From the NCBI GenBank assembly GCA_003024785.1, contig PUQB01000022.1, positions 504,001-568,000 on the forward strand: a stretch of DNA of 64,000 nucleotides, given 5' to 3'. Of the stretch, positions 24,819-64,000 are shown piece by piece. Every line of letters starts with the position of its first letter. Position 1 is the first letter of the stretch. The notes beneath the pieces are model-generated. The model searched no databases and was not told where the DNA came from. It was given only the letters and a program-made list of their open reading frames with translations. Origin of the DNA: Selaginella tamariscina. Taxonomy: Eukaryota; Streptophyta; Lycopodiopsida; Selaginellales; Selaginellaceae. The translations under genes and the position numbers were made by a program.

Positions 24819-25242
24819 CTATGCCTTCTCCTTCTTAACCTTAAATATTGTACAAATCTCCTGAGGTGTCTTACCCTTAATCATATCAGCTACTGTTTGA
24901 CAAGTCAAGTCGAGCAGACTTTTGTTATTGAGATAATTTGCAGCTAATGTGAGATCACACAACACCGGCTGCCTCACTTGTATAAACTCTTTATCCCAAA
25001 CCTTAATCTCACAGTCATTCTTAGCTACTTTACCGCTCTCGTCCTTCTTCACAGCATCAAGATGGTACTTAATATACTTAATCACCTTGGCAAGAATTGA
25101 ACCTGTAACATTTGGCAAGGGCACTAAGACATGGCCACCAATGTCCTCTAGTAAGTTCTTCACTGTTACCATCTCAAAGGCAACAGCTTCATCGACCTCG
25201 AACATCTTGTTCGCTGCTCCTAAGCTGCACTTTCTTAGACAT
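24819..25242 (-). pseudogene. SKP1-like gene, truncated and frameshifted
   Basis: The minus-strand ATG at 25242 begins MSKKVQLRSSEQ. A one-base shift near 25205 leads to MFEVDEAVAFEM, and the frame then stays open to 24819. The body matches plant SKP1/ASK: a BTB/POZ-like N-terminal half, VPLPNVTGSILAKVI, AANYLNNKSLLDLTCQ and TVADMIKGKTPQEI. SKP1 proteins bridge cullin 1 and F-box proteins in SCF ubiquitin ligases. The usual C-terminal helix, with acidic residues and a WAFE end, is missing; this copy stops after FKVKKEKA. With no intron, it may be a retrocopy. The missing F-box-contacting tail and the frameshift suggest a pseudogene, though a sequencing indel could account for the latter. Confidence 0.8.
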
Positions 25243-26559
25243 GTTCACTGGCTTCCTAGGGTTTTCCACCCTAACTCACAACCTAATTTGGATATCCTTT
25301 TAGACACAGTAATAAATAGTTTACTAATTGTGTGTGTGTGATTCTATATTAAGAAGTATATAAAGACTTGTATAAATACTGTTTATGTTATAATATAAAA
25401 TAATTTATATAATAGATGCAGTTGTATCGATATTTTTAGTATATAAGTACCTTTGTGTATGTGCGCGCGAGAGTGTGTGTGACTCAAATATGTCCAACTC
25501 TATATATTATAGCAAATATATAAAACTTAAACGATGATAAAATTATAAATGCCTTGTATGGTATTATGTGTACTAATATAATTATCTTATCAAATTGATT
25601 TACTATTATTAGCATGCTAATTATATTATATTATATTAATAATACTATTTCTTACCAGATGCTTGTAAGTTTGACATGACTTTCTCAGATGTTTACCAAT
25701 TGCACTCCTCTTATCAGCTTGGTGCGATTCCCCACAGTTAAAAGAGCGTTTCTCTGCATTTAGCATAACATCAGTGTGTGTGTGCGTGTGTGTGAGAAGA
25801 GAGAGAGAGGGAGGGAGAGTAACAAACCTGAGTACTGGTCACTGTGAGAACTGTATATAATCCTTGAAAAAGAAACCAACACGTAAACTACAAGTGGTAA
25901 ATTAATTATAAAAGTATCGTAATTAACTTAGACTCTATGCTGATTTGCGTGTTTTAACAATGGGATAAACCTCCTGTTTAAGCAGTTTAATTGCTGCTAA
26001 TATACCTTGAGCAGTGAGAGTTTACCACAAGAAACTCCTCCACTTTACTAACACCATGTATATGCAAGCCTTAAATCTTCAACTTTGTATAGAACATCTA
26101 AACAATGTATATAGATTTTAAGTATACATTACATATACACAATCACACACATTACATACACACACTCTATATATACTAAAATATATATAGTCTGAATGTT
26201 ATTTTTAAACTTGAGCAATTAATTGAAACTTACATTACTCCTTAATGTAAATTTATATGAAGTCTTCAATTGTTTTTATTTTTTAAAAATTAAATTCAAA
26301 ATTTAAAAGAATGAAACTTATAAACTTACTTGACTAAAACAAAAAGGTTAGAATATTAAATTAAACTAAGTGAAAAAATAATTACTTAAAATATATATGT
26401 TTGTTTTCTAGAGTATACTGCATGCAGTATATACACACATGCATACAGTAAATACTTCATGTTATTCTTCCCTCTCACTCTTTTGACTCAGAGTAGTTAT
26501 AACTTGTCAATCTAGGTCAACCCCCTAGAGTTAGATAATGGCCTGGTTGACGAGAAATA
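25243..26559. other. AT-rich spacer upstream of the second gypsy element
   Basis: No gene is seen. Short GT/GA microsatellites occur near 25770-25820. The expected 5' LTR and primer site of the gypsy element that begins near 26560 could not be identified here. Confidence 0.5.
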
Positions 26560-27717
26560 ATGATGGATGCCCTTAATAAACTTCGAGAGGATGTTTTAGG
26601 ATTGAACAATCGAATCGATAATGTTGTTGTTTATGTATGTTATCCAAACATTATAAGTTAGGTTGCATGGAGCATTGTTAACTTATGCATTAAGTTCGTT
26701 TGAATTAAATTCTTCAACAAAAGTAGATGGTGGAGGTCCCAATAAGTTCAAGCCGATCAAACTTTCGGATTTCATGGGTTCAAAGGATTACAAGATTCTG
26801 GATGATTGGTTGTAAGTTATTTCGAGGTCGCTTCTGTGAGAAAGACACAAAAGAAGAAGTTAAGACTTGGTGGCAGATTGTGGAAGGTGAACGTGGATAC
26901 CGAAATAGCTGAAAACACATAAAAAAGAAGATAAAAAAGTAATATATGCTGAATGACCTCGGTTTGCAATTATGTGCTGACTTGGCACTTTGTAACCATG
27001 GAGCTTGGGAAAGTCCAATGGACTATGTTTATCAATTCAAAAGTGTATAGAGTTTGATGCCAAATATGAGTAATGATGAAGCTCGAAGTTGCTTCATAAC
27101 TAGCTTGAATGAAAAGACTCGAAAGGAGATCTTAAGGTACAAGCCAACAAGCTATTAGGAATGTTAAGAGGCAGCACAAAAGGTTGCTTATGACATGTAG
27201 TGAAAAGACTTGTACAATAAAGGCAATGAACCAAAACGTAAACCACATAGTTATCCTCCAAGGTCTAGGTGGAGAGGGTTTGATAGAAGACCAACTCAGT
27301 CACCATCAAATCGAGTGCAAGTTCTTTTGTCGATAGTTCCAAGTTTTCAAACACATCAAGACTCACCAAATTTTGGAAACCGTTAGTTTTACCACCACTT
27401 CAGCATGCCAAGGGTCCGACTCCAAAGTCTACTCCCTCGCAGGTTGCAACCAGAGTTCTAAAATGTCATAATTGTAACAAGCTTGATCATTTTGTTAGAG
27501 AATGTTGGGCATCTTCATAATAATTGGGTTGTTTCAAGGTAATGGTAAAGGAAGTTGTTGAACCTGAAACGCTTGAAGATTCAGAAGATGAGTCAGAAGA
27601 GGTAATGTTGTGCCAGAACAACCTGCCTTATTCACTATTTAAAACAAAACTAACCCTTTGCTATATTTGATAAGAAGGATATGAAAGGACCAAGTTCAAA
27701 TGATGATCGATACTAGA
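26560..27717 (+). mobile_element. Ty3/gypsy element 2, gag part (left of the insertion)
   Basis: A decayed gag region is read in several frames: KPIKLSDFMGSKDYK, a region with SLNEKTRKEIL, then a zinc knuckle CHNCNKLDHFVREC (CX2CX4HX4C) near 27466-27510. It ends in the start of the protease active-site motif (Asp-Thr at 27709-27714), where the 14.5-kb element is inserted. The rest of the retroelement resumes at 42246. Many stops make it inactive. Confidence 0.8.
27714..27717. other. Left target-site duplication (TAGA)
   Basis: TAGA at 27714-27717 recurs at 42242-42245 on the other side of the 14.5-kb element. A minimal reading is a 3-bp AGA duplication. With one copy removed, the gypsy protease frame runs on across the join. 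Confidence 0.75.
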
Positions 27718-27747
27718 AATGCACGTTGTAACTAAAGTGGGCATGAT
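27718..27747. repeat. Left terminal inverted repeat
   Basis: Begins AATGCACG and continues TTGTAACTAAAGTGGGCATG. It pairs with 42212-42241 in inverted orientation. Confidence 0.85.
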
Positions 27748-28006
27748 ACGTGAAAATGGGAATATAAAATAAATTACTAATTAATACTTAAGTTTTAATT
27801 ATTAATTAATCATTTAATTAATATGTAATTAAGCCTTAAATATTAATTAATTAATTAATTAATCCTTCAATAACCTTACTTAGTAAGGAATATTCCTAAA
27901 ATATCTTAGAATATTCATATTATTCTAAAAATAGTTTACAATAATGAAGAAATACTATCAAACATAATTACAAATGAAATCATTTTCTTATCAACATGTT
28001 AATTTT

Positions 28007-29180
28007 TTATAAATACTTTCTTCTATCATACAAAGAAATCTTCATTTTGTCTAAATCATCACTCTCCGGATTAATCAAATCATTTTGGTCAATATCTTGA
28101 TGTTGTTGCCACCACTTAACACTCTCACGAATGCAATTGGGAGTTGCCATCCTTGTTAATACATAAGATGTGATAAGAGAAGGTCTGCATAAAGGCTCAT
28201 CTAAAAACTGACGTTCCTTAAGAATAATATTATAAAGCGCCCGGTTGCTATCCTTCATTTTATAAAATTCAATATCACGAGAAAGAAAAGCTTCAGGAAA
28301 TGTATGATACGGTGGATACTGCTCACAAAAATTTTCGAGATTCTTCTTTCTGAGGCACGTATCCAAGTAGTTCACTAGCTCATCCATGATATCGGTATCA
28401 GAATATGGATCGAAAGTGATTGGATGAATACAAGCAATGTTTTGGTTGAGCATAGCCTTCTGAGGAGAGTCGTCTACTACTAACATATGCGTTCTTCATT
28501 ATCCTTAAGCGACTGATCTCCCCATGAGTCCCAATTATTCTTTCATTCTTGAAGAAGTATGGCTTGCTTTCCTTTCTTATATTGTGAAATTCGAGAGGTT
28601 TATAACATATTCGCTGGTCAAAAATCCAATCTTTACGAATCACCTCTTCTGCAACACTACAATGTTTCTTAAGTAAATTCAACAGCGGTGTTAAGTTATG
28701 AATCTGCATGCATGACCAAATCCCCACAAGCGCACCCATCTCCTTAAGCTTTTGAAAGAGACGATCCAACCCTGGACGAAAAATAATATCATATCGAAAT
28801 TTACCATGACAAGGAATGAAATCTCCTTGTTTGATTTCTTTTTTCTATCCTCGGGCCTTTGTCGATGAAGCAGAACACCATTGACATCCAACAACACAAT
28901 ATGGCCATGAGTAACATGAGATAGCGTTGCCTCTTGAATACTTTGCAAATCACTTGTTTGCTCCCTTTCACATTTATCCGTTGCCACTATCGTTGCCTAT
29001 CCCTTCATCATTTAATTGTACATCATCCTTACAAGATTCAGATATTGCATGCGCTGAAGAAATTGATTTCGGAATTGAAGCCAATAAAAATGATGATGAA
29101 GTGGCCCCCATGGTAACGATGTTTTGAGCTGCATTATTATCCATTTCCTGCATGAACTCTGTCATTCTGACATGTGGCAC
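28007..29180 (-). CDS. FCP1/NIF-like HAD phosphatase carried by the element
   Basis: A leftward gene with the HAD phosphatase order of the FCP1/SCP family. Motif I is IVLLDVNGVLLHR near 28895, where the usual DxDGT/V reads DVNGV, keeping the first Asp but replacing the second with Asn. Next come FRPGLDRLFQKLKEMG, a motif II-like GIWSC, and LLVVDDSPQKAMLN near 28470 as motif IV. The protein ends with a basic, aromatic-rich tail (WWQQHQ). An acidic Ser-rich N-terminus precedes the domain. FCP1-like enzymes remove phosphate from proteins such as the RNA polymerase II tail; the Asn may reduce catalysis. The frame shifts near 28825 and 28490, with conserved sequence on both sides. The start is uncertain; the ATGs at 29180 and 29165 are both possible. 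Confidence 0.72.
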
Positions 29181-29437
29181 AAGAAATTGTCGCCAAACCC
29201 CTCTCTTACCTCATGGCAATGCTGAAAATCCATGTTCTCAATTATTTCATTACATCTGCAAAATGATAATTAGCTGACCTTAAAATTATCAAGGTATATT
29301 ATTTACCTTGTTAATGTGTGACCCATGTTTGAACTAAAAGCTTCATTAATCCTTGAGAATTTATTTTCTGTACAAATATAAAAGAAATATACAAAAATGC
29401 CTTATGTTACACTCATTTACAACTATTCACTCTATCA

Positions 29438-29761
29438 TCAATTCATTATCAATTCTTCTTCGCTATTACCTTCTGAGTGAGGCGAAGAAGGTCTAAGCCG
29501 CTTGTGAGATGGTTCAAGATCTTCTGCATCTTCTATTGATGTTTCCATGGGTCCTGGAGTGTGCGAATGTTCTGTACTCCTCGAGATAACTTCCGGTCTA
29601 ATATCTGATTGAAGTTCGTTCTCAGACTCCGAGATTGAACCAGATTCACCTTCAGAGCTATCGCACTTATCTGGAGGGAACTTTCTCAAATACGCCTTTA
29701 TGGAATCGTTGGGGTACTCAGTTGAGACCCAATCTATCCACTTGTTCAGGTCCTCAACCAT
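29438..29761 (-). CDS. Acidic, Ser/Glu-rich ORF of unknown function
   Basis: An ORF of 107 codons: a short structured start (EDLNKWIDWVSTEYPNDS) then a low-complexity tail rich in Ser and Glu with a basic patch HKRLRPSS. It lies between the HAD phosphatase and the next leftward gene and may be a separate gene or the C-terminal exon of that gene after a frameshift. No family is recognised. Confidence 0.4.
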   Translation of the reverse strand: MVEDLNKWIDWVSTEYPNDSIKAYLRKFPPDKCDSSEGESGSISESENELQSDIRPEVISRSTEHSHTPGPMETSIEDAEDLEPSHKRLRPSSPHSEGNSEEELIMN

Positions 29762-29813
29762 GGTCTTATCCTTTCAACGGCAAACACACATGTATGCCGA
29801 AGGTAACACTCCT

Positions 29814-31378
29814 TCAAGACGGACCCCCTAGTGCAGTAGTCAAAAACCCACGCATCACTGTGAGGACCCCTATCAAGTTGACGATGCTCCGTGCCGCTTG
29901 ACTTGTAATGTTTGGATAACGTACATTGCCGAATACGTCACTCATACCTATCGGTGTATCGGATGGAGGTTCAGGGCCGTTGGAGTGCAAACAGATGCCT
30001 GGCCAGTCATTTGGAAGCTTGAAATTGTTTGGCGCATTCCTAACAACCAAGTGAACAACGTATCAATGCACTTGGGATTAGCATCGTTCATATAAAATCC
30101 TGTCCAACGATGTCTATTCTTCTTGGCGAAGGCGAAGGCAAAAGTATCGGTGACATGAGCAAGAATCAAGAAATAAATACCTGAAAAAGTAGGTATCAGT
30201 GAAGAGCGCAAGCATGAATTCAATAATAAATACCTTCTATGTATATGCTTGCACGGCTAAGTTTCTCCACCAGATCCTCTAGTGCCCTATCTGTCGAAAG
30301 ATTTTTTGACACCCGCCGATCCATCACGAACAATTGAAACGGTTTCCTACAAGCAGTGATGTTACCCCATAAAGTCTCCGAATCTAACAACAAACATCTG
30401 TAGGGCTTGTCGTGATTCGTAGCATCCTCCTTTATAAGGTTCAATTCGGTTCTCCGCTGCTGAAGGACTGCCATAAGAGAAGGCGTCATCCCAATGTTCT
30501 CCTTTTTGGCGTTGGCGTGCAATAGATTCTTGCCTAGATCTTCCGATTGGTTCACCCATTCGACAAGCATATCATCGTTCGTCACATGCAAATATTTGCT
30601 GACCTCTTCATATGTTGAAGTCGAGGTCCAACCCAGTTTGTGGCAGTGTATTCCCAACCACTCCTTGAAATGCCTGACCGTCTTCAACTCCATTGCCTTG
30701 AGATGAAAAGGAGAGGTTGGGCTGCTGTTATTAATTTGTAGTTTGCCATCGATCACCAAATCAGCCAAGACTTCCATCTCCTCCATCGTTGTTCCATTTA
30801 AAGGCTTCAACCATGTGAGCTTGAAATCGTTGTCTACATCCTTTGTAGATTGAACAGACTTAGCCTTCGGCGTCTTACTGGGTTTCTTTGCAGACTTTTC
30901 TGAGGGCTCCCCTTCACTTGTCTGCTTCTTCTTCAGTGTTCCTTTTGAAAAGGATTCCATAATCCCCAACCATTTGGCAAAGATCCTATCTTCGGGGCAA
31001 GAAATCAACATCATCAGAAAGGATGTTTCCTTCCCGCCCACCTGGGCAAAATCAACTGCTGCAATTTCTTCAACTCTCTGAGGAAAAAGACAGATTAATA
31101 TACCGGCGAGATAAATCCCGCCCAAACAATTTGCTTACCCGGTATTCCGCAGATTGTGTATTCCCTGCGGTAGCTCTTTGTGGTCGCTGAAGAGATTCCC
31201 ACACGGCTCGCGTGTGTTTAAACTTCTCCCATATTTTGCTGTTGTAGTGGTTGGTGTCGGCAGCGTCCCATTCCGCCGATAACTTATGGTACTGCTCGAT
31301 TGTGAGATTCGGCTTAGCTAAAAACGCCGATCTTTTTGTCAGCTTCTCACGGGTATGCTCGGAAAGTTTTGTTGCCAT
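29814..31378 (-). CDS. Unrecognised element protein with coiled, Lys-rich middle
   Basis: Exons are 31378-31137 (starts MATKLSEHTREKLTKRS), about 31080-30230 and 30191-29814. Intron 1 joins SAEYR to RVEEIAAVDF by GT-AG splicing. Intron 2 (donor after IYIEG) leads to YFLILAHVTDTFAFA. The N-terminal 80 residues look helical (IEQYHKLSAEWDA). A Lys/Ser-rich linker near residues 130-165 is followed by a globular part with KEWLGIHCHKLGW, CLLLDSETLWGN and DRRVSKNL. A frameshift near 30085 precedes NAPNNFKLPNDWPGICL. I recognise no family. Intron 1 contains a variant of the element's palindrome (GGCGAGATAAATCCCGCC, 31106-31123). Role unknown; regulation or transposition is possible from context only. 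Confidence 0.6.
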
Positions 31379-31418
31379 CGTTCCTTTGTTGTGTTCTCGA
31401 GAAGTCGTTGGGCTGCCG

Positions 31419-32531
31419 TTATTGTGTGCTGGCCACTAATGATGTAGTACTTGATAGATTTTTATTCTCCGTCTGAATCTTCATGAGTTGTTCTGGTGTT
31501 GTGATCCAGACTTTGTCAGCGCCCTTCCTTCTTTCATAGTATGGACACAAAACAGCATTATGTGGAACGGTATAAGAATTGTCGTCCTTCATCTTCTCCA
31601 TGAGCTCAGCTACACGTTCCTGGTTGAGTGGCCTGTAATTGAAGTTTGGGTTGACGCTGCAATATTTAACCCTACAAGGATAAATCTTATCATCCAACAT
31701 CATTTCCTTGTGACTTATTGCAGCATGAGATGCCACAGGTGCAGCTGACAAAACGATTGATGATTTTCTTTTGCGATCCGAATCAACATGTGTGATCCCC
31801 GACTGCAGCTGTTCTAGTGTTCTCGGCACACTCTTCCAGCTCCCAAGCTCCTAAGCAAATTGAACGTGATCTGTAGAGAACCTGAGACCGAGCCACCTCT
31901 CAATCTCCATTATGATGTCGCTGTGTTCTTCTTCAATGTGAAGAGGGAAGATTGCTCCACTTGCTGATTTTCTGTATTGTGAAGCAATATCTCCTGACAA
32001 TACACCTACTCGATGAGTCTGAAGATTTCGAAGTAGACATCCAGATGGATCCCCTCCATAGATGGGCTTTCGTTGAGTTGAAGAAGAACTCCAAGGTCAA
32101 CATCATTAGTGAACACGTGAACGTCATTATCCACAAGTCGACAAAACCACCCGAAATTAATGTTGTAACTGACGACCTCTGGATCCGAGAACGTGACATT
32201 GGATGGAACAAGGCATATGTCGAGATCGTCCAATCTGGGTTCGCAGCCTGCTTTCGGGTGCTTGACTAGCGAATCTACTTTCCATTGTTTTGCTTGTCCA
32301 TGAGATGTGACAGAGGTTAATTTGACAGCAGCCATGGTTGCTCCAATGCGCTTCCCATTTATCTTAAAATATGGCCAAGTTGATTCCAGAATCCCCCTGC
32401 CCATCTCTTCTCCTGCTCTTGTCTTTAATGTCACCTCAATTCCACATCTGAATACAAAAATGATTAGTTCAAGTATCCGAGTATAACAGATTTTATTTTA
32501 ATTCTTACCCAGAATTTGACGACGACTCCAT
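31419..32531 (-). CDS. Element protein with possible ParB-like segment
   Basis: The ATG at 32531 opens a short exon (MESSSNSG), spliced across an intron to CGIEVTLKTRAG at about 32448. The first part (ESTWPYFKINGKR, KVDSLVKHPKAG, NINFGWFCRLV) has no known relative. A stop appears at LIE (about 32006), but a shifted frame runs on with SASGAIFPLHIEEEH to a TAG at about 31853. The next open stretch contains NYRPLNQERVAELMEKMK near 31640, which resembles the start of ParB/sulfiredoxin-fold domains (P-x-x-x-x-R-V-x-x-L), then VLCPYYERRKGADKVW. One gene with a shift and a TAG, or two adjacent genes, both fit. The ParB relation is only motif-level. Its promoter side carries the hairpin and palindrome array 1. 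Confidence 0.5.
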
Positions 32532-32674
32532 ACTAATGACTCGATCTCCTTGTTTGATCAAATCGTCCTTCTGCAAAATAATACACTATGAATAAAATAT
32601 ATATAAAAACGCACACACACTTGTATAAACCCGAATATACAAAAATAATACACAGAGAGAAGTAGACGTAATTA

Positions 32675-32759
32675 ACTGTCCGAAGCTCACATTTGTGTTA
32701 GTGCAAAAGAAAGATAACATTTCGTTTTAGAACCACCACAAATGTGAGCTCTGGACAGT
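32675..32759 (-). repeat. Near-perfect hairpin upstream of the leftward genes
   Basis: Arms 32675-32697 and 32737-32759 pair at about 21 of 23 positions (ACTGTCC, then two differing bases, then AGCTCACATTTGTG) around a 39-nt loop. It lies about 150 bases upstream of the first leftward ATG. Confidence 0.85.
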
Positions 32760-32873
32760 TTTACATAGATTCCTAGCTTTTACTCGAAATATTATGATAA
32801 GATGATAAAAGTAAATAAAATGAGATATGCAACTTATATATACTAATACACATATATATTCACATGGAAGGTG

Positions 32874-34272
32874 CGGCGGGATTAATCTCGCCACCCCTTC
32901 AATGCCTCCTGAAAGAGTGGGCGGGATTAATCTCGCCACCTTTCTGGAGGCCTTGAACGGGAGTGCGGAATTAATCTTGCCACCCTTCTCGGTCTCAGAG
33001 AGAACTGGGCAGGATTTATTTCTCACACCCCTTCAGTGACTCCAGAAAGGGGCGGGATTAATCTCGCCCACCATGTAAGGATGGTTAAATGAATTTCCCC
33101 ACCTTCCCAATTCTCTCCATTGGTATGTTGAAAACCTTCTACGTCTCAGACAGAAACGTTTGGGATTGGTCCGACTCACCAATGGAGAAAAAAAGAAGGG
33201 TGGCGGGATTCATTCCTCCAACAGGCATTGAAGACTCGGCGGGATTAATCCCGCCGCCCAGGGCCTTCACTCGGTCCCTATGCGGCGGGATTAATCCCGC
33301 CGGACGCCAATTCCCTGCGCGGAATCGGGCGGGATTAATCCCGCCGCCTAGGCACTTCAGGCAGGCCAATGGCGGCGGGATAAATCCCGCCCGATTCGCA
33401 GGGAATTGGCGTCCGGCGGGATTAATCCCGCCTCCCAGGCCCTTCACTCGGGCCTTAGTCGGCGGGATTAATCCCGCCGAACGCCAATGCCCTGTGCGAA
33501 ATCTTGCGGGATTAATCCCGCCGCCTAGGCCCTTCAGGCAGGCCAATGGCGCGGATAAATCCCGCCCGATTCCGCGCAGGGCATGCGTACGCGGCGGGAT
33601 TAATCCCGCCCACCATGTAAGGGATGGTGAAATTAATCCCACCACCCTTCTCAGTTCCCTCCATTGGTATTTTGTAAACCTTCTCCGTCTCAGACAGAGT
33701 TAGTCGGGATTGATTCAACATACCAATGGAGGAAAAAAGAAGGGTGGCGGATTAATCCGCCACCGGGTAATGAAGGTTCGGAGAGACTAATCCCGCCGCC
33801 CTCTCGTAAATCATGCGCTCACACATATATATTGGCTGCGGCATTTTGAACAGGGATGGGTGGGGGCGGGATTAATCCCGCCGCTTATATCCTGCGGAAG
33901 TGCCTGAGCGGCGGGATTAATCCCGCCGCCCTCCGCGAAGGGCATGAGCGTGGGGCCGGATTAATCCCGCCGTTCATGTCCTGCGTGAATTCCCTGGGCG
34001 GGGGATTAATCCCGCCGCCTTACGCGCAGGACATGTCATGCAGGCTCTTCGGTTAGCCTTCCGTGCAGGATCTTTCATGCAGGCTCTTCGGTTAGCCTCA
34101 TGAGCGGCGGGATTAATCCCGCCGCCCATCCCCTGTAAATGCCCTGCGCGGAATCCGGCGGGATTAATCCCGCCCATTAGGGCCTTCACACAGGCCATTG
34201 CCGGCGAGATAAATCCCGCCGCATTCCGCGCAGGGCATGGGTGAGCGGCGGGATTAATCCCGCCGCTCGAGG
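32874..34272. repeat. Palindrome array 1 (GGCGGGATTAATCCCGCC)
   Basis: Twelve exact GCGGGATTAATCCCGC cores and about fifteen variants (TAAAT centre, CTCGCC right half, or single losses) are spaced mostly 25-60 bases apart. Spacers recur in forward and inverted form (ACGCCAATTCCCTGCG, GGCCTTCACTCG, AGGCCAATGG), building larger hairpins. An approximately 90-bp block with CCATTGGTAT and CGTCTCAGACAG occurs twice, at 33118 and 33659. Reading frames here give GGINPA and AGLIPP repeats on both strands because the unit is palindromic; they are not treated as genes. Confidence 0.95.
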
Positions 34273-34981
34273 CTTAGCGTGTGTGAGAGATAAATTAATA
34301 AAATAAAAAATTATACAGACACATATATATATGTGTGTTGTATATATATATATATATATGTATGTAGTATGTATGTTAGGATGTACGTGTGTGTGCAAGA
34401 GATAGATAATAAATAAATATACAGTACTGGTACACATAATATATGTGTACATAGTGTTATATCGTGGTATGCGTTGAGCGAAACAAATAAAATCATACAG
34501 ATAAACAACACACACACACAATATATATACACAGGAGTGTGCGTGTGTGTGCGAAAGATAAAACTAATAAATAAATAAAATTATACAGATAAACAACACA
34601 CATATATATGTGTGTATATAATATATAATCCATAGAGAAAGAAGAGAGATCTGTGAATATATAAGCAATATATATAAACTAGTGTTGTATGTATGTATAT
34701 ATGTATATAGGTATATATATATGTGTATATGTATATTGTGTGTATGCGTGTGTGAGCGAAACAAATAAAATCATACAGATAAACAAACAAACACACACAC
34801 ACACACATATACATACACAGGAGTGTGCGTGTGTGTGCGAGAGATAAAACTAATAAATAAATAAAATTATACAGATAAACACACACATATATATATGTGT
34901 GTATATAGATATATAACCCATATGAATATATAAGCATATATATAAACTAGTGTTGTATACTATTTGTTAATATGCATTGAT

Positions 34982-35040
<59 letters not shown>

Positions 35041-35395
35041 TGTTAAAGCAGTGTGCGTGTGTGTGGGAGAGATAGATCAATAAAAAAAAATTTACAGATA
35101 CTGGTACACATAATATATGTTTATGTATATAGGTATATATATATGTGTGTATATGTATATCGTGTGTATGCGTGTGTGAGCGAAACAAATAAAATCATAC
35201 AGATAAACAAACACACACCCACACACACATATACATACACAGGAGTGTGCGTGTGTGTGCGAGAGATAAAACTAATAAATAAATTTATACGCACACTCCT
35301 ATACATATATACATACATACACACAACACACACACACACACACAGAGATCTCACTGTGTGCACAGCCGCCGCCGCCGATTTCACAAGCCGCCGCC
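34273..35395. repeat. Tandem microsatellite block in the element centre
   Basis: Repeated units of about 230-300 bases mix TA/TG/CA microsatellites with a shared core (AACAAATAAAATCATACAGA, GAGTGTGCGTGTGTGTGCGA). At least four unit copies run from 34300 to 35300. A (TA)n(TG)n tract stands at 34982-35039. ORFs of alternating His-Thr or Tyr-Ile are artefacts. Confidence 0.9.
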
Positions 35396-36310
35396 TCTTG
35401 AAACCCTAAGAATATACCTAAACCCTAAAGGAATTAAATATATATATTAACCCTAATAGAATATTCCTTCTGAGAATATACTTAAACCCTAAAAAGAATA
35501 AAATATAGATTCGCCCTAAACGAATATTCTTTCATTATATTATTAGCGCGTGCGTGTGCGTGGGTGTATCACATACACCCCAAAAATATAAATCATGCAG
35601 GGATTTAACATGTGTGTGTCCATGAGAGTGTTAAAGTTTCATGTGTATCAATACATACATACACATTGCATATATTAATACACATAATATATACATACAC
35701 ACGTGTATACACACAGACATATATACATATTACATGGGTTTAGGGTTTAGGGTTTTGGATTTAGGATGGATCATGCATGGTGTGTATGTATGAGAGAAGA
35801 GAGAGTGTTGAAAAATTATTTTTGTACACATTGCATATATTAGTACACATATATACTTACACATATTATACACAGATATACATACATAGTATATGAGAGA
35901 AGAGAGACAGTACATATTATGGATCATGCATGTGGTGTATTATACACACAGACATACATACATATTAGTACATAATATTAGAGAGACCGAGTACATATTA
36001 TAGATCATGCATGGTGTGTATGTTTGAGAGAAGAGAGACAGTACATATTAACATGGATCATGCATGGTGTGTATGTATGAGAGAAGACAGAAAGTACACA
36101 TATATACATACAGAGTACACATATATACATGCACACGTGTATACACACAGACATACATACATATTACATGAGTAAATTCATTGTGTTACATATTAGGGTT
36201 TAGGGTTTTAGGTTTAGGATGGATCATGCATGGGTGTGAAGAGAGAGTGTTGAAAAATTATTTTGTACACACATGTATACACAGGGTTTAGGGTTTGCTC
36301 CCAACAAGCT
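35396..36310. repeat. Interspersed telomere-like motifs and degenerate tandem repeat
   Basis: AAACCCTAA-type motifs recur at 35402, 35421, 35484 and, reversed as TTTAGGG, at 35739-35757, 36195-36210 and 36286. Between 35760 and 36250 a unit with GGATCATGCATGG and GAGAGAAGAGAGACAGTAC repeats at least five times. These are interspersed, so not a telomere. Confidence 0.8.
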
Positions 36311-37883
36311 TAATATAAATATTACACATGTAAATTCAATGTGTTACATACACACAGATTGAGTACATATATCATACATGCGTTGAACATGATGTTTTCA
36401 ATAAAGAAGCAACATATTTCTTCAGTTTGGTTTAGGGTTGTGCATGTGTGTGCATATGTGTTTTTGTAAGTTCTTGTAATGCGTGTGTAAATTTATGATT
36501 GTGTTTATATATGTGTGCAAAACAAACATCGAATAATTAAGAAAATAATATTAATAAACACACTATGAACATATTTTAAATTATACATAAAATATATGAT
36601 TTTATCTAATATATAGCCATATATAGTTTTAATTATATATTAATTTAATATTGATAAAAAGGTTTAACATTGAAATATTCTTGAAATAATAAGAAATTAA
36701 TTGAGAAAATCCCATTAATATATACAAATGTAAATTAAGTACTCAAATAATTAACTAAATTAATTATCATAATCATGTTTAATATTGGAATATTCTTGGA
36801 ATAATAAAAAATAATAAAGAATATCCCATTAATATAAAGAAGATTAATTACTCAAGTAATTAAGGAAATGATATTAATATATATATTATTAAAACTATAT
36901 ATGACTATATATTAATAAAATGATTATTATTATGTATAATTTAAAATATGTTCATAGTGTGTATTAATTTAATATTGATAATAAGGTTTAACACATGAAT
37001 ATTCTTGAAATAATAACAAATTAATTGAGAAAATCCCATTAATATATACAAATGTAGAATAATTACTGCAATAATTAAGAACAAGACTAATTTAATTATG
37101 ATAATCAGGTTTAATATTAGAATATTCTTCAAATATTAATAAAATATTAAAGAATATCCCATTGATACTAGGAAATGAAAACTAAATACTCGAGTAATTA
37201 AAAAATAATAATAATAAACAGACTATGAATATATTTTAAATGATACATAATAATATATCAATTTATTTATTGTATAAGTATATATATATATATATATATA
37301 ATATAAATATACTTGAATACTAAGAATGTAGAATATATCTAAAATTTCGTAATATTAAACAGCTTGAATCACTTGAATAACATTAAATGCAATTTTAAAA
37401 TACTCATTGGAACTGGAGAGTATATATGTCAGAGTGTCGGATATTTGTGTCAACTCATCTTAAATTTTATTTTCTGTTCTTTTTAAAAAATTTGAATTTC
37501 TGACATATGTATTGTCGGTCTGACATGTAAATTTGAAAATGCATTTAATTTCCCACTCAAATTCAGATCTGGTTCTTTCTCCGGCAAGGGTTTCTTCATT
37601 TCTGTATTTTTCACTCTTTAGATCTTCTTTTTTCTTCATAGTGATCATCTCAGGAGCGAGATTAAATTGGGTGCTATTCTTTATAGGAAAGCACGGCGCC
37701 TTCAGTGCTGTTTACAAGTAAGTATTATAAACAAATTTAAAAATACTTATAAAGATTCACTCTCTTACATTCTCTCTTAAAATTACAATTTAGGGGTTTA
37801 GGAATGCATTAGGATTATAATATATTCCGTTAGGGATTTATCCCGTTTAAATATCCTTTTAACTTAATATTCTAGGTTAACCG
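36311..37883. other. AT-rich centre with a duplicated 310-bp block
   Basis: Blocks starting near 36645 and 36960 match each other closely (shared ATATTCTTGAAATAATAA and GAGAAAATCCCATTAATATA). The stretch 37533-37717 is less AT-rich and ends in a good splice donor (CAAGTAAGT), so it may be a 5' exon of the rightward gene whose first intron would hold palindrome array 2. Otherwise empty. Confidence 0.55.
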
Positions 37884-38478
37884 GGCGGCGGGATTAATCC
37901 GGCCATTTCTTTTTCGCCTCTTCGAAGAGGTGGGATTAATCCCGCCACCATCTCTCGGGCAATGCTTCTCCGCCACTGAAAAAGAGTGGCGGGATTAATC
38001 CCGCCGATAACCTTCTCAACTGATGAAGAGTTACCAGAATTTATTAGAAAGAGTTGTCGGGATTAATCCCGCCAACCATTTTAGGAGGCAGGGAAGGGGT
38101 GGCGGGATTAATCTCGCCACCACATCCCTGTTTTAAGGATTTGGGGACAGGATTTATCCCGAGATCTCTTTGAAATCATAGTTTTGGAGAGAGTTATGTG
38201 CGGGTTTAATCCGCCACCCATTCCCCGTCGTAAGAATTGTGGCGGGATTAATCCCGCCTTGGACTCCCTCCGACAAGGAAGAGCCGGCGGGATTAATCCC
38301 GCCGGACTCCCCCGAGAGGAAAGGCGGCGGGATTAATCCCGCCGCTCTTCCTTGTCGGAGGGAGTCCAAGGCGGGATTAATCCCGCCGACTCTCTCCGAA
38401 GGGGTTGAGTCGGCGGCGGGATTAATCCGCCGACCGTTCCTCGTCGGAGGGATTCGTGGGCGGGATTAATCCCGCCCA
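37884..38478. repeat. Palindrome array 2 (GGCGGGATTAATCCCGCC)
   Basis: Six exact GCGGGATTAATCCCGC cores plus at least seven variants. Two of the cores and their spacer form a perfect 43-base inverted repeat: 38250-38292 and 38344-38386 (TTGGACTCCCTCCGACAAGG and complement). It ends about 150 bases before the ATG of the rightward transposase gene. The spacer sequences differ from those of array 1, so the palindrome itself is what the arrays share. Confidence 0.95.
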
Positions 38479-38628
38479 TCAGTTGTATTAATCAAACATG
38501 AGATATTATCTCTAAACATAATTATGTATTATTGCATATGCATATTATTAAGTAACCGTAATTCAGATTTCTTAAATATTGCATAAACAGATATCATAAA
38601 TAATACAATTATTTATGTGCAGGACAAT

Positions 38629-41600
38629 ATGTTTAATACTGGAGATAAAGTATGTCTTCTTCGGAACAACGAGATAGTTGGCACTGGAACTGTGGAAGTT
38701 CGAGATAATAATGCATCATGTCACAATATTGCCCAAGGATCTTGTGTGTACGTATGGGTGAACACCATTTACAAGCATGTTGAGGTTCTGGGAATGGAAT
38801 TTGAGGAGGGTTCTCCTGTATTGTGGAATTTGGATGAAGTCAAGGCTGACACAGAATATGCAGAGTCACAAACAAATAGTAGCACGAGTTTACCAGATGA
38901 TGGCTTGCCTGCTGTGATGGATGAGGTGATTCTCTTTCTTCGTGAGATTGAAGTCGGAAGAGGCATCATCACAGCTATAAATCCAATGGAAGCAGTGTCA
39001 GAAGAGAAACTAGGGTCCGACTTCGTGGGTGTAGTTGTGACAGAGGTTTCACCTAATGGCACATTGTATCCTGGATCCCTCGTGAGGTGGCGAACATCTG
39101 AATTAAGACGGCAAGATGGTTCAACATATTCTGGGTTGGATTTCAATAATAACAACCCGGAAGAACAACTCATATTTGAAGAGGTTCCTTGCATTGGTCC
39201 TATTGTAAGAAAAAGGCGATTCATGGGTTGTAGATCTTCCCCTGCAAGTTTCAGCAAGAGGGTAAAGATGGATCCTACATCTTCCGAAAGTGTTACGAGC
39301 ATTTCCACGATTGACTGTTGCAAGAAGAAGTGTTGTCAGATGGCAGACCGGAATGAAATTACCCAATGTAGACATGTCTTTCGTATGCTCACCCAAAAGC
39401 AAAGGCATGAGTTTGTATATGCTGCACTAACTGGGTGTATTGATGGAATGGCCTCGGACACAGGTTATCAGAGTACATCCATGGTATTTAATAAGTGGCC
39501 ATCTGCTTCAAAGCTTGGTACAGTATATACGGGATCCCAAAGACCACGTTCTACCGTCGGAGGGATGAGTGGCTAGATGGAGCGCGAACCTCAGTTCATG
39601 GGAACACTCGCTTGGTCAAAACCCGCTCTCACATCATGGCAGCCATAGAGATACTCAAGGCTTTTGTGGAAGCAAATGCAGACAGGATGCCTCACAAATG
39701 CCGAACCACAAATGCAGGGTCAGGGAAAATCTCAAGGTTTTGCCTTCAATCTACACTCAATTGAAACTGTGTGAACATGTGAACAAGTGCCTCAGTTTGA
39801 TGGGGCTCCAAGCAATCTGCACTGGTACCTTCAACAACATATGGAATACTCATTTTAAGGATGTGGAGATTGCAAAACACTCTAGCTTTTCCAAGTGTGA
39901 CACTTGTACATCATTGAAGGCTGCAGAGGCTTGTGCAAAAACCTTGGTGGAGATCACTGCCATTCAAAGGAAGATGGAGGCCCACATGATTGCACAACAA
40001 ACTTGCCGGTCTCAGTACTATGCACACCGCATGCTTTCTGTGTCAGCCCATCAGAGTACCTGTGCTTGATCCATGACAAGATGGATCATTCAAAGACCAG
40101 CATTCCAAAGCTCTTTGCAACACCAAAGTGCCTTGGAAATGTCATGAAACTTCCGATTTCATTGACAGGTGTGCTAACACATGGACACGGTTGTGAGTCA
40201 TATGGACACTTTTCACTTCCACATTTCTAGCGACTCCAATTTCACTATTGGGTCGTTAGCCATGTGTTTCAGAAACCTTGAAGCCCACTCACAGACAAGT
40301 CCTATCAGTGATCTCAAAGTGAAGAAACAACACCTTCAACCTTTACATAATGCTCTCATGAACATCTGCACTTGAGGCTACTTGGGAATATGAGAGGCAT
40401 TGTCAACAGCCTGCACAAAAACAGATGGCCCTGTTGAGAGTTCTGGTTCAGTGGAGGGATCTAGCTCAAATAGTGTACATGTGTCCTCAACATCAAATAA
40501 GCTTCCTCGTCATTTGCTTTTACAGATGGATAATTGTGCAGGCGAGAACAAAAATAGGTAAATCATTTTACTTAAGGGTTTCTCAAGCTCATACTTACTT
40601 TTATTTTCTAGATATGTGCTAGCATACTTGTCAATGCTTGTTGCCAAAGGTGTGTTTGAAACAATCACGCTCAGTTTCCTTATGGTTGGTCACACTCATG
40701 AAGATATTGATGCGTTCTTCAGCAAGGTCTCCAACTCTACAAAAAGGACAAGTGCACTTACCTTACCGCATATGATGAATCTTTTTGAAAATTGCATCTC
40801 CAAAAAAAGTTGCTTTGCTTGGACTGAGGTGCCAGACTTCAAAAAATTTCTCAAGGAGTATATAAAAGAAGGGAGTGATTCTTTAGTTGGTCACCTTGTG
40901 CCGCTACAATTCTTTTTCTCCATACGAGATGGTATACCTATTATGCAGTACAAGTTACGGCCATCAGAGCAGGAGTGGTTACCGAAAGAGGGGTTAATGC
41001 TCTTCAAAAGTGGAGAGGATGGAAAGCCACTTCTCCCAGAAGGACAACCAGACCCTATTCCATTGAGTGCCCAGCTCAAGGAACAAGAGGTTATTATTGA
41101 TGGCATCAAAAAATATGTGGCATGGGTTCAAAAATCGATGCCAAAGAATTCTGATAAGGCAACTGGTTACTCAGAACTATATAAGCATGTGGTCAACTAT
41201 TGGGAGACTGTTGTTCGAGAGTTGGAAGGGCCTACTGTCACAAGTACAGAATTGCAACACCCTTTCTGGCCTAAAACAAGGTGGCGAGAGGAGATTGAAA
41301 TGACATCACTGAGCATAGACGACATAGAAGCCAGTAGTGATGTGGAAGTGCAAACCCCACACTTTGTTGGACAAAGGAACCAAAAACCTAAAGCATACTT
41401 TGATTGCTGCCAGGATCTTCAAAAACTAATGATGGTTTCATTACTCCAGATGCGTCATATAATCAGCCTATTTGGATGGGTCAAATTATCGACACACCTG
41501 AAGTAATCACAAAAAATAGTATTGTTAAGGTTGCATGGTTCAAACCACAAAAAAGGCGACACGAGAAGGAGAGCGAAAGATATAATGGATGCCTAGAGAA

Positions 41601-41736
41601 AACATGGTCTCCCAATCAAAAAGACCCAGCATGTTTTATAAATGTTAAATCCATTCGATATGGGTGGATGTCAAGAAGCGTTGATAAAGTCACGATTAAC
41701 AAAACTGCAAGGGAATGTATGTTTTCTGAAGCTTAA
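38629..41736 (+). CDS. DUF7869-like transposase (DDE/D-type candidate), frames broken
   Basis: The ATG at 38629 follows a splice acceptor (TGCAG). The N-terminal domain (CVYVWVNTIYKHVEV) resembles a segment seen in plant En/Spm-type proteins. A Cys cluster CCKKKCCQ lies near 39322, and an HTH-like YGIPKTTFYRRRDEW near 39530. A core follows: HSSFSKCDTCTSL, MDHSKTSIPKL (40081), MDNCAGENKN (about 40513), then, after an intron 40557-40611, FLMVGHTHEDIDAFFSKVS (about 40676). The three acidic positions fit an RNase H-fold triad, by inference. The C-terminal stretch 41404-41736 (PIWMGQIIDTPE, KVAWFKP) looks like a BAH- or chromo-like module. Shifts occur near 39500, 39700, 40050, 40230, 40370 and 41450. 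Copy 2 of the gene (62758 on) is open across several of these, so some are indels peculiar to this copy. Confidence 0.75.
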
Positions 41737-42241
41737 AGCAATTACAAAATTATAAAATATCATATATTTAATATTCATAATTATTATAAACTCTTTAATA
41801 ATAGTACCAAATTGTATACTTAACTATATAAATTTAAAAAATGATATGGAAGATTGACTATATTATTATAGGATTTTATATATATATTATTACTACTACA
41901 AATTTTTAATTAATAATGTTATTTTAAATATTAATATTTTAATAACAACATCAATATTTATATAATGTACCTCTTATGCTCTTCCTTAATTGTTATATTA
42001 GGCAATATATTATATAATTTAATACATTCTACTTTTATAATGTTATTAATTTTGTTCAATGAATGCTATAATTTATTAAAGGGTAGAATACAAAATAGAA
42101 TATTCTAAAGAATATTCTCTTTTCAAACATATATTCTAAAGAATATTCCTTTAATATTAGAAAATGCTAATTAAATAGCTAAAATTGCTAATTATTAAGA
42201 AATGGGACTATAGCCATGCCCATTTTAGTTACAAACTTGCA
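41737..42241. other. Right end of the large element with terminal inverted repeat
   Basis: AT-rich 3' region. The motif AGAATATTC/TTAAGAATATTC repeats near 42100-42150, echoed at the left end near 27890-27920. The right TIR occupies 42212-42241, followed by the TAGA target duplication at 42242-42245. Confidence 0.8.
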
Positions 42242-42245
42242 TAGA

Positions 42246-43970
42246 GCAACATACAATTTTATATTGACTAGTCTAACTCATCGATTAAATTTGGATGAAT
42301 AAATAAAGATCAGTTTTGGCAAGGTTTTCAAAATAATAATTATATAACAAGGACAGTTCCTGTTTAAAATTAAATGTTGAAAGGCTAAGTTAGACTTGGT
42401 TGTCTTGAATATGAATGGGGTTTGACTTTGTGTTGAGTATATAATGGTTTCATAAACATGTAGTCAAAATAAGGGGTTTCGGAAAATAATCGAATCACGC
42501 TTGTAGCAGACAAGAAGGACATTAGAAAAACAACGTTCAAGATGGAAACGCTAACTGTGAAGGAGGAATCCCATGTTCCTTACCTTAACTTAGTTACGTA
42601 AGGTAGTTATACATTGAGAATGTGTATATTCTTGCAATGGTTTTGGATACTAGTGTGTCAAGATAAAAGATGGTTAAGAATCTGTTTTGGAACCTAATTA
42701 GAAGTCTTAAATATGTTTAAAGATGTGTTGTCAAAAGACTTGTCACCCGAACTACCTTCATGTCGAGGTGTGAACCACAAGATAGAGATTTTGTTAGGTT
42801 CGTCTCCACCAACAAGAGTCCCATATTGGTTGAATCCTTAAGAGTTGATGGAATTGAAAAGACAATGACATAATTAATTAGTCGAGGGCATATTTGGCCT
42901 AGCCAATCCTCGTATGGTGCACCGATCCCGTTTGTAATGAAAAAGTGTACGATGCGGATGTGTGTGGACTATCGAGTGCTGAATGCAATAACTATAAAAA
43001 ATAAATACCCTCTTTCATGAGTGGACAAATTATTTGATAGGCTATCAAAAGCGAAATATTTTTCAAGAATAGACTTGAGATATAGGTACCATCAGTTTCG
43101 GGTAGCAAAGAATGACATTGAGAAGACCGCTTTTCTAATGCATTATGGATTATTCGAATTTTTAATCTTGCAATTCGGATTGTGTAATGCTCCAACAACT
43201 TTTTGCACAATGATGAATGATGTGTTTAGAGACTATCTAGGATGAATTCGTAGTGGTCTATATTGATAATATTCTGGTTTTCAGTTTGACAATTAAAGAA
43301 CATGCAAAACACTTAAAAAAAGTGTTTCAAAGGTTGAGGGAGAACTAGTTGTAATGCTAAGAAAAGTAAGTGCGCATTTGGTCAACAAATTTCTTGAGAC
43401 ACTCAATCTTAGGTGAGAAGGTTGCCATGGATTTAAAGAAAAATTCAAGCTATTACCAAGTGGTTGACTTTGAAAGACATGTATAAAGTTAGATTATTAC
43501 TTTGTCTGATAGGGTATTATCGAAGATTCATAAAAAGTTACTCGGAGATAGCGGCATCATTGACGAATCTCATGAAGAACGTTTCATGACATTTGATTCC
43601 AGAGTGCCAGCGGGTGTTTGTTAAACTCAAAGAAGCTATTTCTTTTGAGTAAGTTTTGTAGTTGCCAATTTTCAAAGATCCATTTGAGGTAGAATATGAT
43701 GCTTCCAACTTTGCAATTGGTAGTATATTACAACAAAAAGGACATCTAGTGTTTCTTTTTCTCAAAGAAGCTGGATGCTACAGAAATTCGATGGCTTACT
43801 CACAAAAAAGAGATGTATGCTATTGTTGCTTATTGACATCATTATCTTTCAAGGCATGGCACTATGGTTTGGACATATAGTGTAACTCTAAGGTACTTTG
43901 AAACACAGCCGAAGCTATCATCAAAGTACGGTAGATGGCAGCAGAAATTAACTCAATTTCAGCTTGAAAT
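42246..43970 (+). mobile_element. Ty3/gypsy element 2: protease, reverse transcriptase, RNase H
   Basis: The second half of the protease motif resumes at 42246. The start of reverse transcriptase follows near 42710. The core (YFSRIDLRYRYHQFRV and FGLCNAPTTF) lies at 43021-43245, with YIDNI of the YxDD catalytic region near 43258-43275. RNase H (YDASNFAIGSIL) is at 43662-43880. Frequent stops and shifts show an old, inactive copy. Confidence 0.85.
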
Positions 43971-44251: not shown

Positions 44252-44791
44252 TATACATAAAGCTAAAAAAGATAATGTGGTAGTTAATGCACTCAGTAAG
44301 AAGGGTCATCTTCGCATTATGTCAGCACCAGTGTCAACTTTGGTAGATGAATTTGTAATGGCATATTCTCAAGGCGAGTTTGCTAAGAAAACTTTGAAAC
44401 CTAGTAAAGAGAAAACATGTTCATCAATTACGAAGAGATAGTAATAGAAAGTTGAATGGATGCACTCAAGTGAGTGCATTTTGCAGTGCGGGATGGAGTT
44501 CTCTATTATAAAGAGAAAAGACTTTATGTTTCAAAAGGGACATGGAGGCAAAGATTGTTAAGTGAATGTCACAATCTTTCTTTGGCAGAACATGGTGGAA
44601 GACATAAAATGTTGGCTCTACTCAAACAGGGATTTTATTCGCCGAGGATGATAAGAAATGTTGTTGAGTATGTTAAGACATGCCCCATATCAACAAGTGA
44701 ATAGTTGATCGCAAAAACGAGTTGGGAAGTTGTAGTGTATATCAATTTTAGAGCGGCCATTTCAAAGCATTACTTTGGACATTGTCACGGG
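44252..44791 (+). mobile_element. Ty3/gypsy element 2: start of integrase
   Basis: Continues with DNVVVNALSKKGHL (end of RNase H), then the integrase zinc region (LSLAEHGGRHKML...CPIS, 44474-44704) and the first integrase core residues near 44765-44790, where solo LTR A is inserted. Confidence 0.8.
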
Positions 44792-53565: not shown

Positions 53566-55343
53566 TGTCAGAGTTTTAACCCAAAGGGCCAACACGTGGC
53601 AACACGTGGCTGCCATGTGGCCATTTGGCGTCATCACCCTGTGTGAGCAACGCTAAGTATCCCAGAACAACCCCAACGACCCCTAGGTTAGTCTCTAATG
53701 CCCAAGTGGACAAGAGACTTAGGGTTTAGCCTAAGTCTCCCTAGAATGTCTGCCCCCAGACCCTTGAGAATAACCCTAGTTGACTTAGGGTTTAGCCTAA
53801 GTCTCCCTAGAGTGTCTACCCCAAACCCTTGAGGGATAACCTAAGTTGACTTAGGGTCTTGCCCTAGAAGACCTAGACAGGCTCATGCCCTAACCCCATC
53901 AAGGAGACGTGTGTTCCACACACATACCCCGTGACAGAGCTAAGGCATTGTCACTTACCCCTTGAGGAATCACCCTCATCCGGGAGTACAACCCCTTTAG
54001 GGCGACAAGGGGTACCCTGAACCACGACTAACCCCTAAGGGTTTGAGTGGCCAAGTTACACCCTAGACTAGGGCTAGTACTTAGTGAGGACACGAGTGTG
54101 CGCCGTAGGCGAGCACGAGTGTTCTGCTAAGCAAACTCCCTAAGGCTAGGTTTGGGATAACCCTAAGCACATGACCTTGCGAGTGCCTTACGAAAGGGCT
54201 TCTGCTAATGAGCTTAGGTTGTTCAACCCCTGGATTCCAAGGAGAACACTCCCCTAGCCAAGTGTGCCAAAGCACACCTAGTTACGAGACCTAACCTCCC
54301 TCGAGCGGATGCCCAAGGCTTAGCACCCTAGTGCAAGCACAAGCATGCCTGTTTGCTAGAGTATCCAACCCCTTAGCGACAAGCCCATGACATAACCCCA
54401 AAGGGCGTGCCTCGGGCGTTGTACCATGTGACGTTTAGCCCAGTGTCACATCCCCATGTGACACTGCCTTCCAAGATGTGAGCTATCATGCCATAGCCCT
54501 TAGATTCAAGAGTTGCACCAAGTACCACAAACGTGGTTCCTAAATGCCAACTCTAGAACCCCTCAATGAACCCTCAGGAACTAGGTAACGTGAACCTGTC
54601 AAACAAGATCCCACGCCCACAGTTGGACAAGGACACGGATGTGCCTTGCTTGGCCGTGAGTGCTACACCTAGCTTGACGTGGAGGAGGAGGCTGGAGACA
54701 AGCCTCAACCTCTGCCTCTTGGAACGTGCATCCCGACAAGACCTCCCAGGCATGGATTCGCCAACGTTAAGGGTAAGCTACCCCGAAGGTGGGACGTACC
54801 CCTGGCATCTGGAAGTTAGGGCGGCACAACAGAGGGTTGTACCTTAACGACACAAGCTGAAGCTTGCACCGGCAGAAGAGCAACGAACTCATTCATGAAC
54901 CCAGGAGCTCTCCTACATACACTCTACCTTATTTATGTGACGAGCCCCCCCCCCCCCTGTTTCCTAATGAGTAAGTGGGCTGGCACAAATGCCAGCCCTT
55001 AGAGAAAATAGTTGTCCTAAACCTAACCCTAAACCTAACCCTAGGGGGGGGTTTAGGGCGTGGGTTAGGGCAACCCTAGGGTTAGGTCAACCCTAGGGGT
55101 GTCCCTAACCCTTTTTGACAAGCTATATTAAGGAAAACCTACGTCAAAACTGGGGGAGGTTTTCTAGAGGTAAGTGCTACCTTCCTAGAGTTTCTCATAC
55201 CTAAGACAGCCGGCCGGACTACCCTAAACACCTAAGTGCACTAAGCGGGGCTGTTTTCACTACATCTAGGGTCGCCACAAATCAGTAGGTAACAACAGTC
55301 AACGTCCAAAGTAAAGGGTCGAGTCATAGTAAAAACTATGACA
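53566..55343 (-). repeat. 3' LTR (copy C) of the LARD-like element
   Basis: 1778 bp, plus-strand ends TGTCAGAG and ACTATGACA. Contains a C10 run near 54945, interspersed CCTAAACCTAACCC motifs near 55018, the conserved hairpin 54442-54465 and a terminal hairpin at 55323-55342. Confidence 0.92.
54566..54847 (+). other. ORF in LTR C, antisense to the element
   Basis: A 93-codon ORF beginning MNPQELGNVN. Copy D has an equivalent 100-codon ORF at 59978-60280 and solo LTR A an 88-codon one at 45574-45308. It is closed in solo LTR B. No domain is recognised, and copies A and C differ by many amino-acid changes, so protein-level constraint is doubtful. Confidence 0.4.
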
Positions 55344-62757: not shown

Positions 62758-64000
62758 TGCAAGCAATCTGCATTGGTACCTTCAACAACATATGGAATAC
62801 TCATTTTAAGGATGTGGAGATTGCAAAACACTCTAGCTTTTTCAAGTGTGACACTTGTACATCATTGAAGGCTGCAGAGGCTTGTGCAAAAACCTTAGTG
62901 GAGATCACTGCCATTCAAAAGAAGATGGAGGCCCACATGATTGCACAACAAACTTGCCGATCTCAGTACTATGCACACCGCATGCTTTCTGTGTCACGCC
63001 CATCAGAGTTGGATCATTCAAAGACCAGCATTCCAAAGCTTGTTGCAACACCAAAATGCCTTGAAAATGTCATGAAACTTCCGATTTCATTGACAGGTGT
63101 GCTAACATATGGACACGGTTGTGAATCATATGGACACTTTTCACTTCCACATTGGTCTAGCGACTCCAATTTCACTATTGGGTCGTTGGCCATGTGTTTC
63201 AGAAACCTTGAAGCCCACTCACAGACAAGTCCTATCGGTGATCTCAAAATGAAGAAACAACACCTTCAACCTTTACATAATGCTCTCATGAACACGTCTG
63301 CACTTGAGGCTACTTGGGAATATGAGAGGCATTGTCAGCAACCTGCACAAAAAACAGATGGCCCTGTTGAGAGTTCAGGTTCAGTGGAGGGATCTAGCTC
63401 AAATAGTGTACATGTGTCCTCAACATCAAATAAGCTTCCTCGTCATTTGCTTTTATAGATGGATAATTGTGCAGGCGAGAACAAAAATAGGTAAATCATT
63501 TTACTTAAGGGTTTCTCAAGCTCATACTTACTTTTATTTTCTAGATATGTGCTAGCATACTTGTCAATGCTTATTGCCAAAGGTGTGTTTGAAACAATCA
63601 CGCTCAGTTTTCTTATGGTTGGTCACACTCATGAAGATATTGATGCGTTCTTCAGCAAGGTCTCCAACTCTACAAAAAGGACAAGTGCACTTACCTTACC
63701 GCATATGATGAATCTTTTTGAAAATTGCATCTTCAAAAAAAGTTGTGCTTTGCTTGTGACTGAGGTGCCAGACTTCAAAAAATTTCTCGAGTATATAAAA
63801 GAGGGGAGTGATTCTTTAGTTGGTCACCTTGTGCTGCTACAATTCTTTTTCTCCATACGAGATGGTATACTTATTATGCAGTACAAGTTACGGCCATTAG
63901 AGCATGAGTCGTTACCGAAAGAGGGGTTAATGCTCTTCAAAAGTGGAGAGAATGGAAAGCCACTTCTCCCAGAAGGACAACTAGACCCTATTCCATTGAG
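62758..64000 (+). pseudogene. Second copy of the DUF7869-like transposase gene, 5' truncated
   Basis: It begins abruptly with sequence matching 39809 (AAGCAATCTGCA, then TTGGTACC) and is nearly identical to the copy in the 14.5-kb element through the window end. The frame 62745-63458 is open for 237 codons and spans shifts seen in the first copy. It lacks 23 bases present in copy 1 just before DHSKTSIPK. The same intron follows MDNCAGENKN, and HTHEDID appears near 63640. The N-terminal domain, Cys cluster and HTH are absent, so this copy is a fragment. The 3' end lies beyond the window. Confidence 0.8.

Follow-up and report, generated by a model that had tools for sequence, protein, structure and literature searches.

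Transposons of the Sola superfamily are reported to make 4-bp target duplications, to encode a DDD transposase (three catalytic aspartates) and to end in inverted repeats of 11-1,124 bp (PMC10741241). Sola1 has been listed from Physcomitrella (PMC9033089), and the 21.5-kb Sola1-1_Ec32 of the alga Ectocarpus, where Sola-1 makes up 0.17% of the genome, carries an opposite-strand accessory gene whose 1,104-aa product combines ParB with an N4/N6 methyltransferase (PMC12477816). Here we describe a DNA transposon of 14,524 bp embedded in a gypsy retroelement of the vascular plant Selaginella tamariscina, at positions 27719-42242 of a 64-kb stretch of contig PUQB01000022.1 (the window). Comparing it with Sola by description, we regard it as quite probably a giant cut-and-paste element of Sola-1 type with terminal inverted repeats (TIRs), seen after a recent burst. 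The literature searched yielded no description of it from Selaginella.

Boundaries, host retroelement and empty sites

The initial annotation had placed a DNA transposon inside a gypsy protease, and this is supported by flanks that differ between copies, by the 4-bp duplications that 7 of the 15 copies read at both ends carry, and by empty sites. The two ends agree literally at 19 of 20 bases (TTGTAACTAAAGTGGGCATG versus TTGTAACTAAAATGGGCATG), exactly as first noted, and the right end of the family read inwards, ATGCAAGTTGTAACTAAAATGGGCATG, is identical to the left end, ATGCACGTTGTAACTAAAGTGGGCATG, at 25 of 27 bases; the window copy has one A more than the family right end. Each of the 28 left-end loci, which represent 22 distinct places including the window, has an A before TGCACGTTGTAAC, and each of the 20 right-end loci has a T after CTTGCA, so that both bases can normally be counted as part of the element; exceptions are the copies C1042 and C965, which lack the leading A. 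The boundaries proposed earlier were thus correct to one base, and are shifted by one here. The TAGA first reported as the duplication is present on both sides, but its right-hand T is the last base of the element, which leaves AGAA and AGAG, equal at three of four bases, as the outer flanks. The features of the insertion and its host are as follows.

27287-27517: gypsy zinc knuckle, weak match (E 2e-4)
27715-27718, no strand: left target duplication AGAA (host AGAG), from empty gypsy sites and the 4-bp duplications of other copies
27719-42242, no strand: whole element, from termini common to 22 left-end places (28 loci) and 20 right-end loci, and from ten other copies
27719-27745, plus strand: left TIR ATGCACGTTGTAACTAAAGTGGGCATG, from the sequence of the window and other loci
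27888-27916, no strand: left subterminal GAATATTC motifs at 27888 and 27909, by motif count
42098-42148, no strand: right subterminal GAATATTC motifs at 42098, 42110 and 42141, by motif count
42215-42242, minus strand: right TIR, with one extra A in the window copy, from the window and 20 right-end loci
42243-42246, no strand: right target duplication AGAG, from empty gypsy sites and the 4-bp duplications of other copies
43021-43242: gypsy reverse transcriptase (RT), domain match
43662-43877: gypsy RNase H, weak match (E 2e-4)
44474-44701: gypsy integrase zinc finger, domain match

The GAATATTC motif occurs 10 times in the element and not once in the remaining 49.5 kb of the window; five further motifs lie mid-element, at 35459, 35522, 36788, 36997 and 37120. 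No Rfam match was found within 27700-42300.

Judged by its ordered gag zinc knuckle, RT, RNase H and integrase domains, which flank the insert, the host is a Ty3/gypsy element. Its codons run on in frame once the insert is removed (IDTRATYNFI), which bears out the original observation, although it carries stops elsewhere. Empty gypsy relatives, the other check proposed at the outset, read GATACTGGA joined directly to GCAACATACAAC (also given as GATACTGGA joined to GCAACA), a junction that encodes the protease motif D-T-G-A-T and is clean in all eight loci inspected. All 40 gypsy matches scored, out of 993 first-look candidates, span the junction without the insert at 85-86% identity. The two conditions named at the outset as refuting the transposon were thus both decided in its favour, since its ends recur in the genome and the gypsy copies scored lack the insert.

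Target duplications were examined in other copies by seeking the opposite end in 0.7-1.9 kb of sequence fetched at the expected distance from 20 left-found and 17 right-found copies; one additional region was missing, and contig C1207 stops short of the point sought. At least 15 of the 37 had the opposite end, a lower bound because five of the remaining loci (L072, L076, L077, L084 and L086) start, by eye, with near-left-end element sequence. An identical 4-mer stands on both sides in 7 of the 15, five of them with an exact duplication (ACTA, ATAC, AGTG, AGCA or GGAG) and two (AGTT, ATTT) with the first A of the element missing, and one further copy is a partial case (ACTT with two extra A). 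Among the distinct right flanks, 21 of 25 start with A. Weighing against a transposon that duplicates its target, 7 of the 15 copies (C669, C582, C980, C1233, C269, C1 and C438) show no matching duplication; it could have been lost where copies recombined with one another or where the assembly switched haplotype.

Abundance and integrity of the copies

A 33-base left-end pattern, from TGCAC on and with up to two mismatches, occurs at 1,540 places genome-wide (778 + 762), and its reversed control at none, so chance does not account for the matches. A 37-base transposase-core pattern, at the same tolerance, occurs at 1,986 places (983 + 1,003; reversed control 0). The right-end pattern gives 3,470 places, a number inflated since two mismatches also accept left ends; subtracting these suggests about 1,930 right ends. 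Pairing was sampled on 67 of the 100 listed exact left ends, those on contigs up to C147, which the listed cores cover. For 41 of the 67, a listed core stands no more than 20 kb away in the same orientation, and in at least 33 the spacing is that of a near-full-length copy (11.6-13.5 kb; 12.9 kb in the window). Extrapolation yields at least about 760 near-full-length copies, or 11 Mb and 3.7% of the 300.7-Mb assembly, and were every left end full length, the figures would be 22 Mb and 7.4%. Flanks common to some loci (L019, L020, L027) indicate that duplicated haplotypes inflate these counts to some extent.

Ten further copies of 14.5-14.8 kb, selected among the 15 in which both ends were present, match the window copy over its entire length, with pairwise divergences of 0.5-2.1%, in keeping with the expectation that other copies would share its ends and gene order. 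Length differences of at least 15 bases fall mostly in palindrome arrays and in a microsatellite-rich middle. The best reading is that the element multiplied recently to well over a thousand places, with many copies near full length.

A second, partial copy occupies 62755-64000 of the window and continues to 65173 in window numbering (contig C527, loci L117-L118). It comprises the right-hand 2.4 kb, right end included, is 96.2% identical, and represents a kind of remnant that may partly account for the excess of cores over left ends. Loci L120 and L121 show two head-to-head copies separated by about 222 bp and, in L121, one copy that starts 249 bp inside another; the pair and the nested copy give no sign of target immunity.

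Transposase, accessory genes and palindromes

The two outward gene sets recognized initially are indeed divergent, and comprise the following features.

28007-29232, minus strand: phosphatase-like gene of the NIF/FCP type (HAD), whose start is uncertain and whose read-through protein matches PF03031 (E 7.4e-13)
29438-32531, minus strand: gene 2, about 976 aa in several exons, from frames across copies
32875-34264, no strand: left array of 19 GGCGGGATTAATCCCGCC sites adjoining the gene 2 start (shuffles 0)
37887-38476, no strand: right array of 10 GGCGGGATTAATCCCGCC sites just upstream of the transposase (shuffles 0)
38629-40557, plus strand: exon 1 of the transposase, some 640 codons, whose frames are broken in the window copy and open throughout in copy C444
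40558-40611, plus strand: predicted transposase intron GT...AG, whose removal links DNCAGENKNR with YVLAYL, a junction also seen in relatives P0003 and P0008
40612-41736, plus strand: transposase exon 2, with the third Asp in GHTHEDID (DUF7869, E 4.4e-26)

Exon 1 holds the first two putative catalytic aspartates (in HDKMD and DNCAGENKN), and the stop-to-stop open reading frame of exon 2, of 392 codons, is open in copies C837, C1311 and C488. The protein had been called a transposase of a poorly described family; the transposase stands, and it can now be placed in Pfam DUF7869 (PF25273), for which Pfam gives no function and of which no mention was found in the literature searched. Homologous DUF7869 proteins (rows P0001-P0087) share 29-48% identity with it, and those named come from mosses, Physcomitrium patens among them, a liverwort and a sea cucumber. 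The model of a relative, shorter than P0003 and used in its stead for the fold comparison, adopts an RNase H (DDE/D) fold in which the RNase H positions are taken by three aspartates that do not vary among the relatives, so that the transposase is likely of DDD type with an RNase H fold. Mos1/SETMAR transposases and retroviral integrases share this fold and its three acidic residues, but differ in sequence (7-13% identity), ends and duplications. The P0003 model further suggests two N-terminal SH3/Tudor-like modules in exon 1 and a C-terminal BAH-like region in exon 2.

The beta-class N6/N4 methyltransferases have a characteristic motif order, and gene 2 can be read by eye against it. A first part, YYIISGQHTITAAQ, which includes SGQHTITAAQ, resembles the ParB core, and is followed by MDRRV ... 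VFDYCTRGSVLKE ... CVFAVEKD in the order of such methyltransferase motifs. In a protein search with gene 2, not one candidate out of 5,702 was retained at E 0.001; Pfam and NCBIfam gave nothing usable, PHROGs gave one family without function at E 0.052, and among PDB sequences only two designed repeat proteins matched, neither of them relevant. The same search with the phosphatase retained none of 1,430 candidates, although PF03031 matches.

The 18-bp palindrome GGCGGGATTAATCCCGCC occurs 30 times in the window at up to two mismatches, always inside the element, with none expected from shuffles; 17 exact copies lie in the element and none in the remaining 49.5 kb of the window. Of the 30, 29 stand between the two gene sets, 19 beside gene 2, in an array whose length differs among copies, and 10 beside the transposase. 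The remaining one, a degenerate palindrome at 31105-31122 within gene 2, apparently sits in an intron between SAEYR and RVEEI. As ParB proteins act on clustered palindromes, we propose the GGCGGGATTAATCCCGCC sites as candidate sites for the gene 2 protein.

Variants were counted over 11 copies, against an expectation of about 3.0-3.5 changing per synonymous. For variants shared by at least two copies, the synonymous:changing counts are 9:1 in exon 1, 1:3 in exon 2, 7:6 in gene 2 as a whole and 1:8 in the phosphatase; for single-copy variants they are 9:27, 6:8 plus one stop, 10:18 and 0:4, respectively. These small numbers, in which single-copy variants may include sequencing errors, suggest constraint on exon 1 and, weakly, on gene 2, but not on exon 2 or the phosphatase.

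Elsewhere in the window lie a Skp1-like gene (24822-25244, minus strand; Skp1_POZ 3.2e-15, Skp1 4.4e-14), a predicted tRNA-Ser (TGA; 3285-3366, minus strand) and two arrays of a 66-67 bp unit, 5.4 kb apart (53716-53877 and 59149-59313), with the near-equal consensus GACTTAGGGTTTAGCC....

Classification and proposed biology

CACTA/EnSpm elements have CACTA ends and 3-bp duplications; here the ends read ATGCA..., the duplications are of 4 bp and PF03017 (TNP1/EN/SPM) matches only at E 0.12, and we set that superfamily aside. Mutator-like elements, with duplications of 7-12 bp (PMC10741241), were likewise rejected, the duplications here being of 4 bp where present. With the Sola superfamily the element shares 4-bp duplications (in the window, three of four bases), inverted ends within the described range and, by the modelled relative, a DDD transposase. 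The placement in Sola-1 rests mainly on the layout and content of the accessory genes, which match Sola1-1_Ec32 if the by-eye reading of gene 2 holds, and also on the 4-bp duplication, the DDD motif and the moss distribution. Both elements are giant and encode, opposite the transposase strand, a further protein of some 1,000 aa; the likeness is one of layout and content. Unlike its 21.5-kb counterpart, the Selaginella element is 14.5 kb long, belongs to a vascular plant, and has a phosphatase gene, palindrome arrays and a far higher copy number. The size and cargo first thought unusual for a plant element are so for flowering plants, and resemble those of the giant algal Sola-1 (PMC12477816).

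Three other explanations deserve consideration. Because the element sits between the gag and RT domains, its genes might be captured cargo of a large gypsy retroelement with incidental ends; the 40 gypsy copies without the insert and the distinct flanks among fetched loci (24 beside left ends, 25 beside right ends) refute this account, to which we give practically no credence. An assignment to another DDD superfamily, or to an unnamed one, with a convergent likeness to Sola-1, is more credible and still improbable. It gains from a Sola comparison made by description, from the silence of the searched literature on DUF7869 and from AcademX elements, which make 3- or 4-bp duplications and carry a nuclease gene (PMC10045372); a 4-bp duplication is present here, and Pfam scans found no nuclease family among the translated pieces. 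It loses from the opposite-strand accessory gene, of the type found in a named Sola-1 element if our reading by eye holds, and from the report of Sola-1 in Physcomitrella together with the presence of Physcomitrium patens proteins among the DUF7869 relatives.

The element may also be immobile today, or have moved only in trans, its copies being the dead descendants of a burst, since frameshifts interrupt one or both transposase exons in all 11 copies. We consider this possible, if rather unlikely: the breaks differ between copies and single-copy gap columns outnumber single-copy substitutions, as expected of long-read assembly errors, and the copies are only 0.5-2.1% divergent.

On the preferred reading, as a Sola-1-type element, the DUF7869 transposase would bind the 27-bp inverted ends, and perhaps the subterminal GAATATTC motifs, excise the element and insert it where the target DNA is cut with a 4-bp stagger, mostly with A as the first base. 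Other repeats are among the targets, an old gypsy protease and existing copies of the element included. Tudor- and BAH-like modules might steer the transposase to chromatin, and gene 2, as a ParB-methyltransferase accessory protein, might bind the palindromes beside both gene starts and mark or shield the element's own DNA. We offer as a doubtful extension that the palindromes serve as a parS-like address: loaded there, the ParB-like portion of gene 2 would bring onto the element's DNA a domain that methylates it or reads its methylation, which would keep the element expressed and let a 14.5-kb, non-miniature element fill several per cent of a plant genome.

Among DNA transposons, short derivatives usually outnumber the large autonomous elements, whereas here cores (1,986) outnumber left ends (1,540) and at least 33 of the 67 sampled left ends belong to near-full-length copies. 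Pfam DUF7869 gains, by way of the model, a likely fold and role, and the element provides a vascular-plant system, with candidate binding sites, in which to ask whether transposons mark their own DNA by a bacterial-type ParB-methyltransferase.

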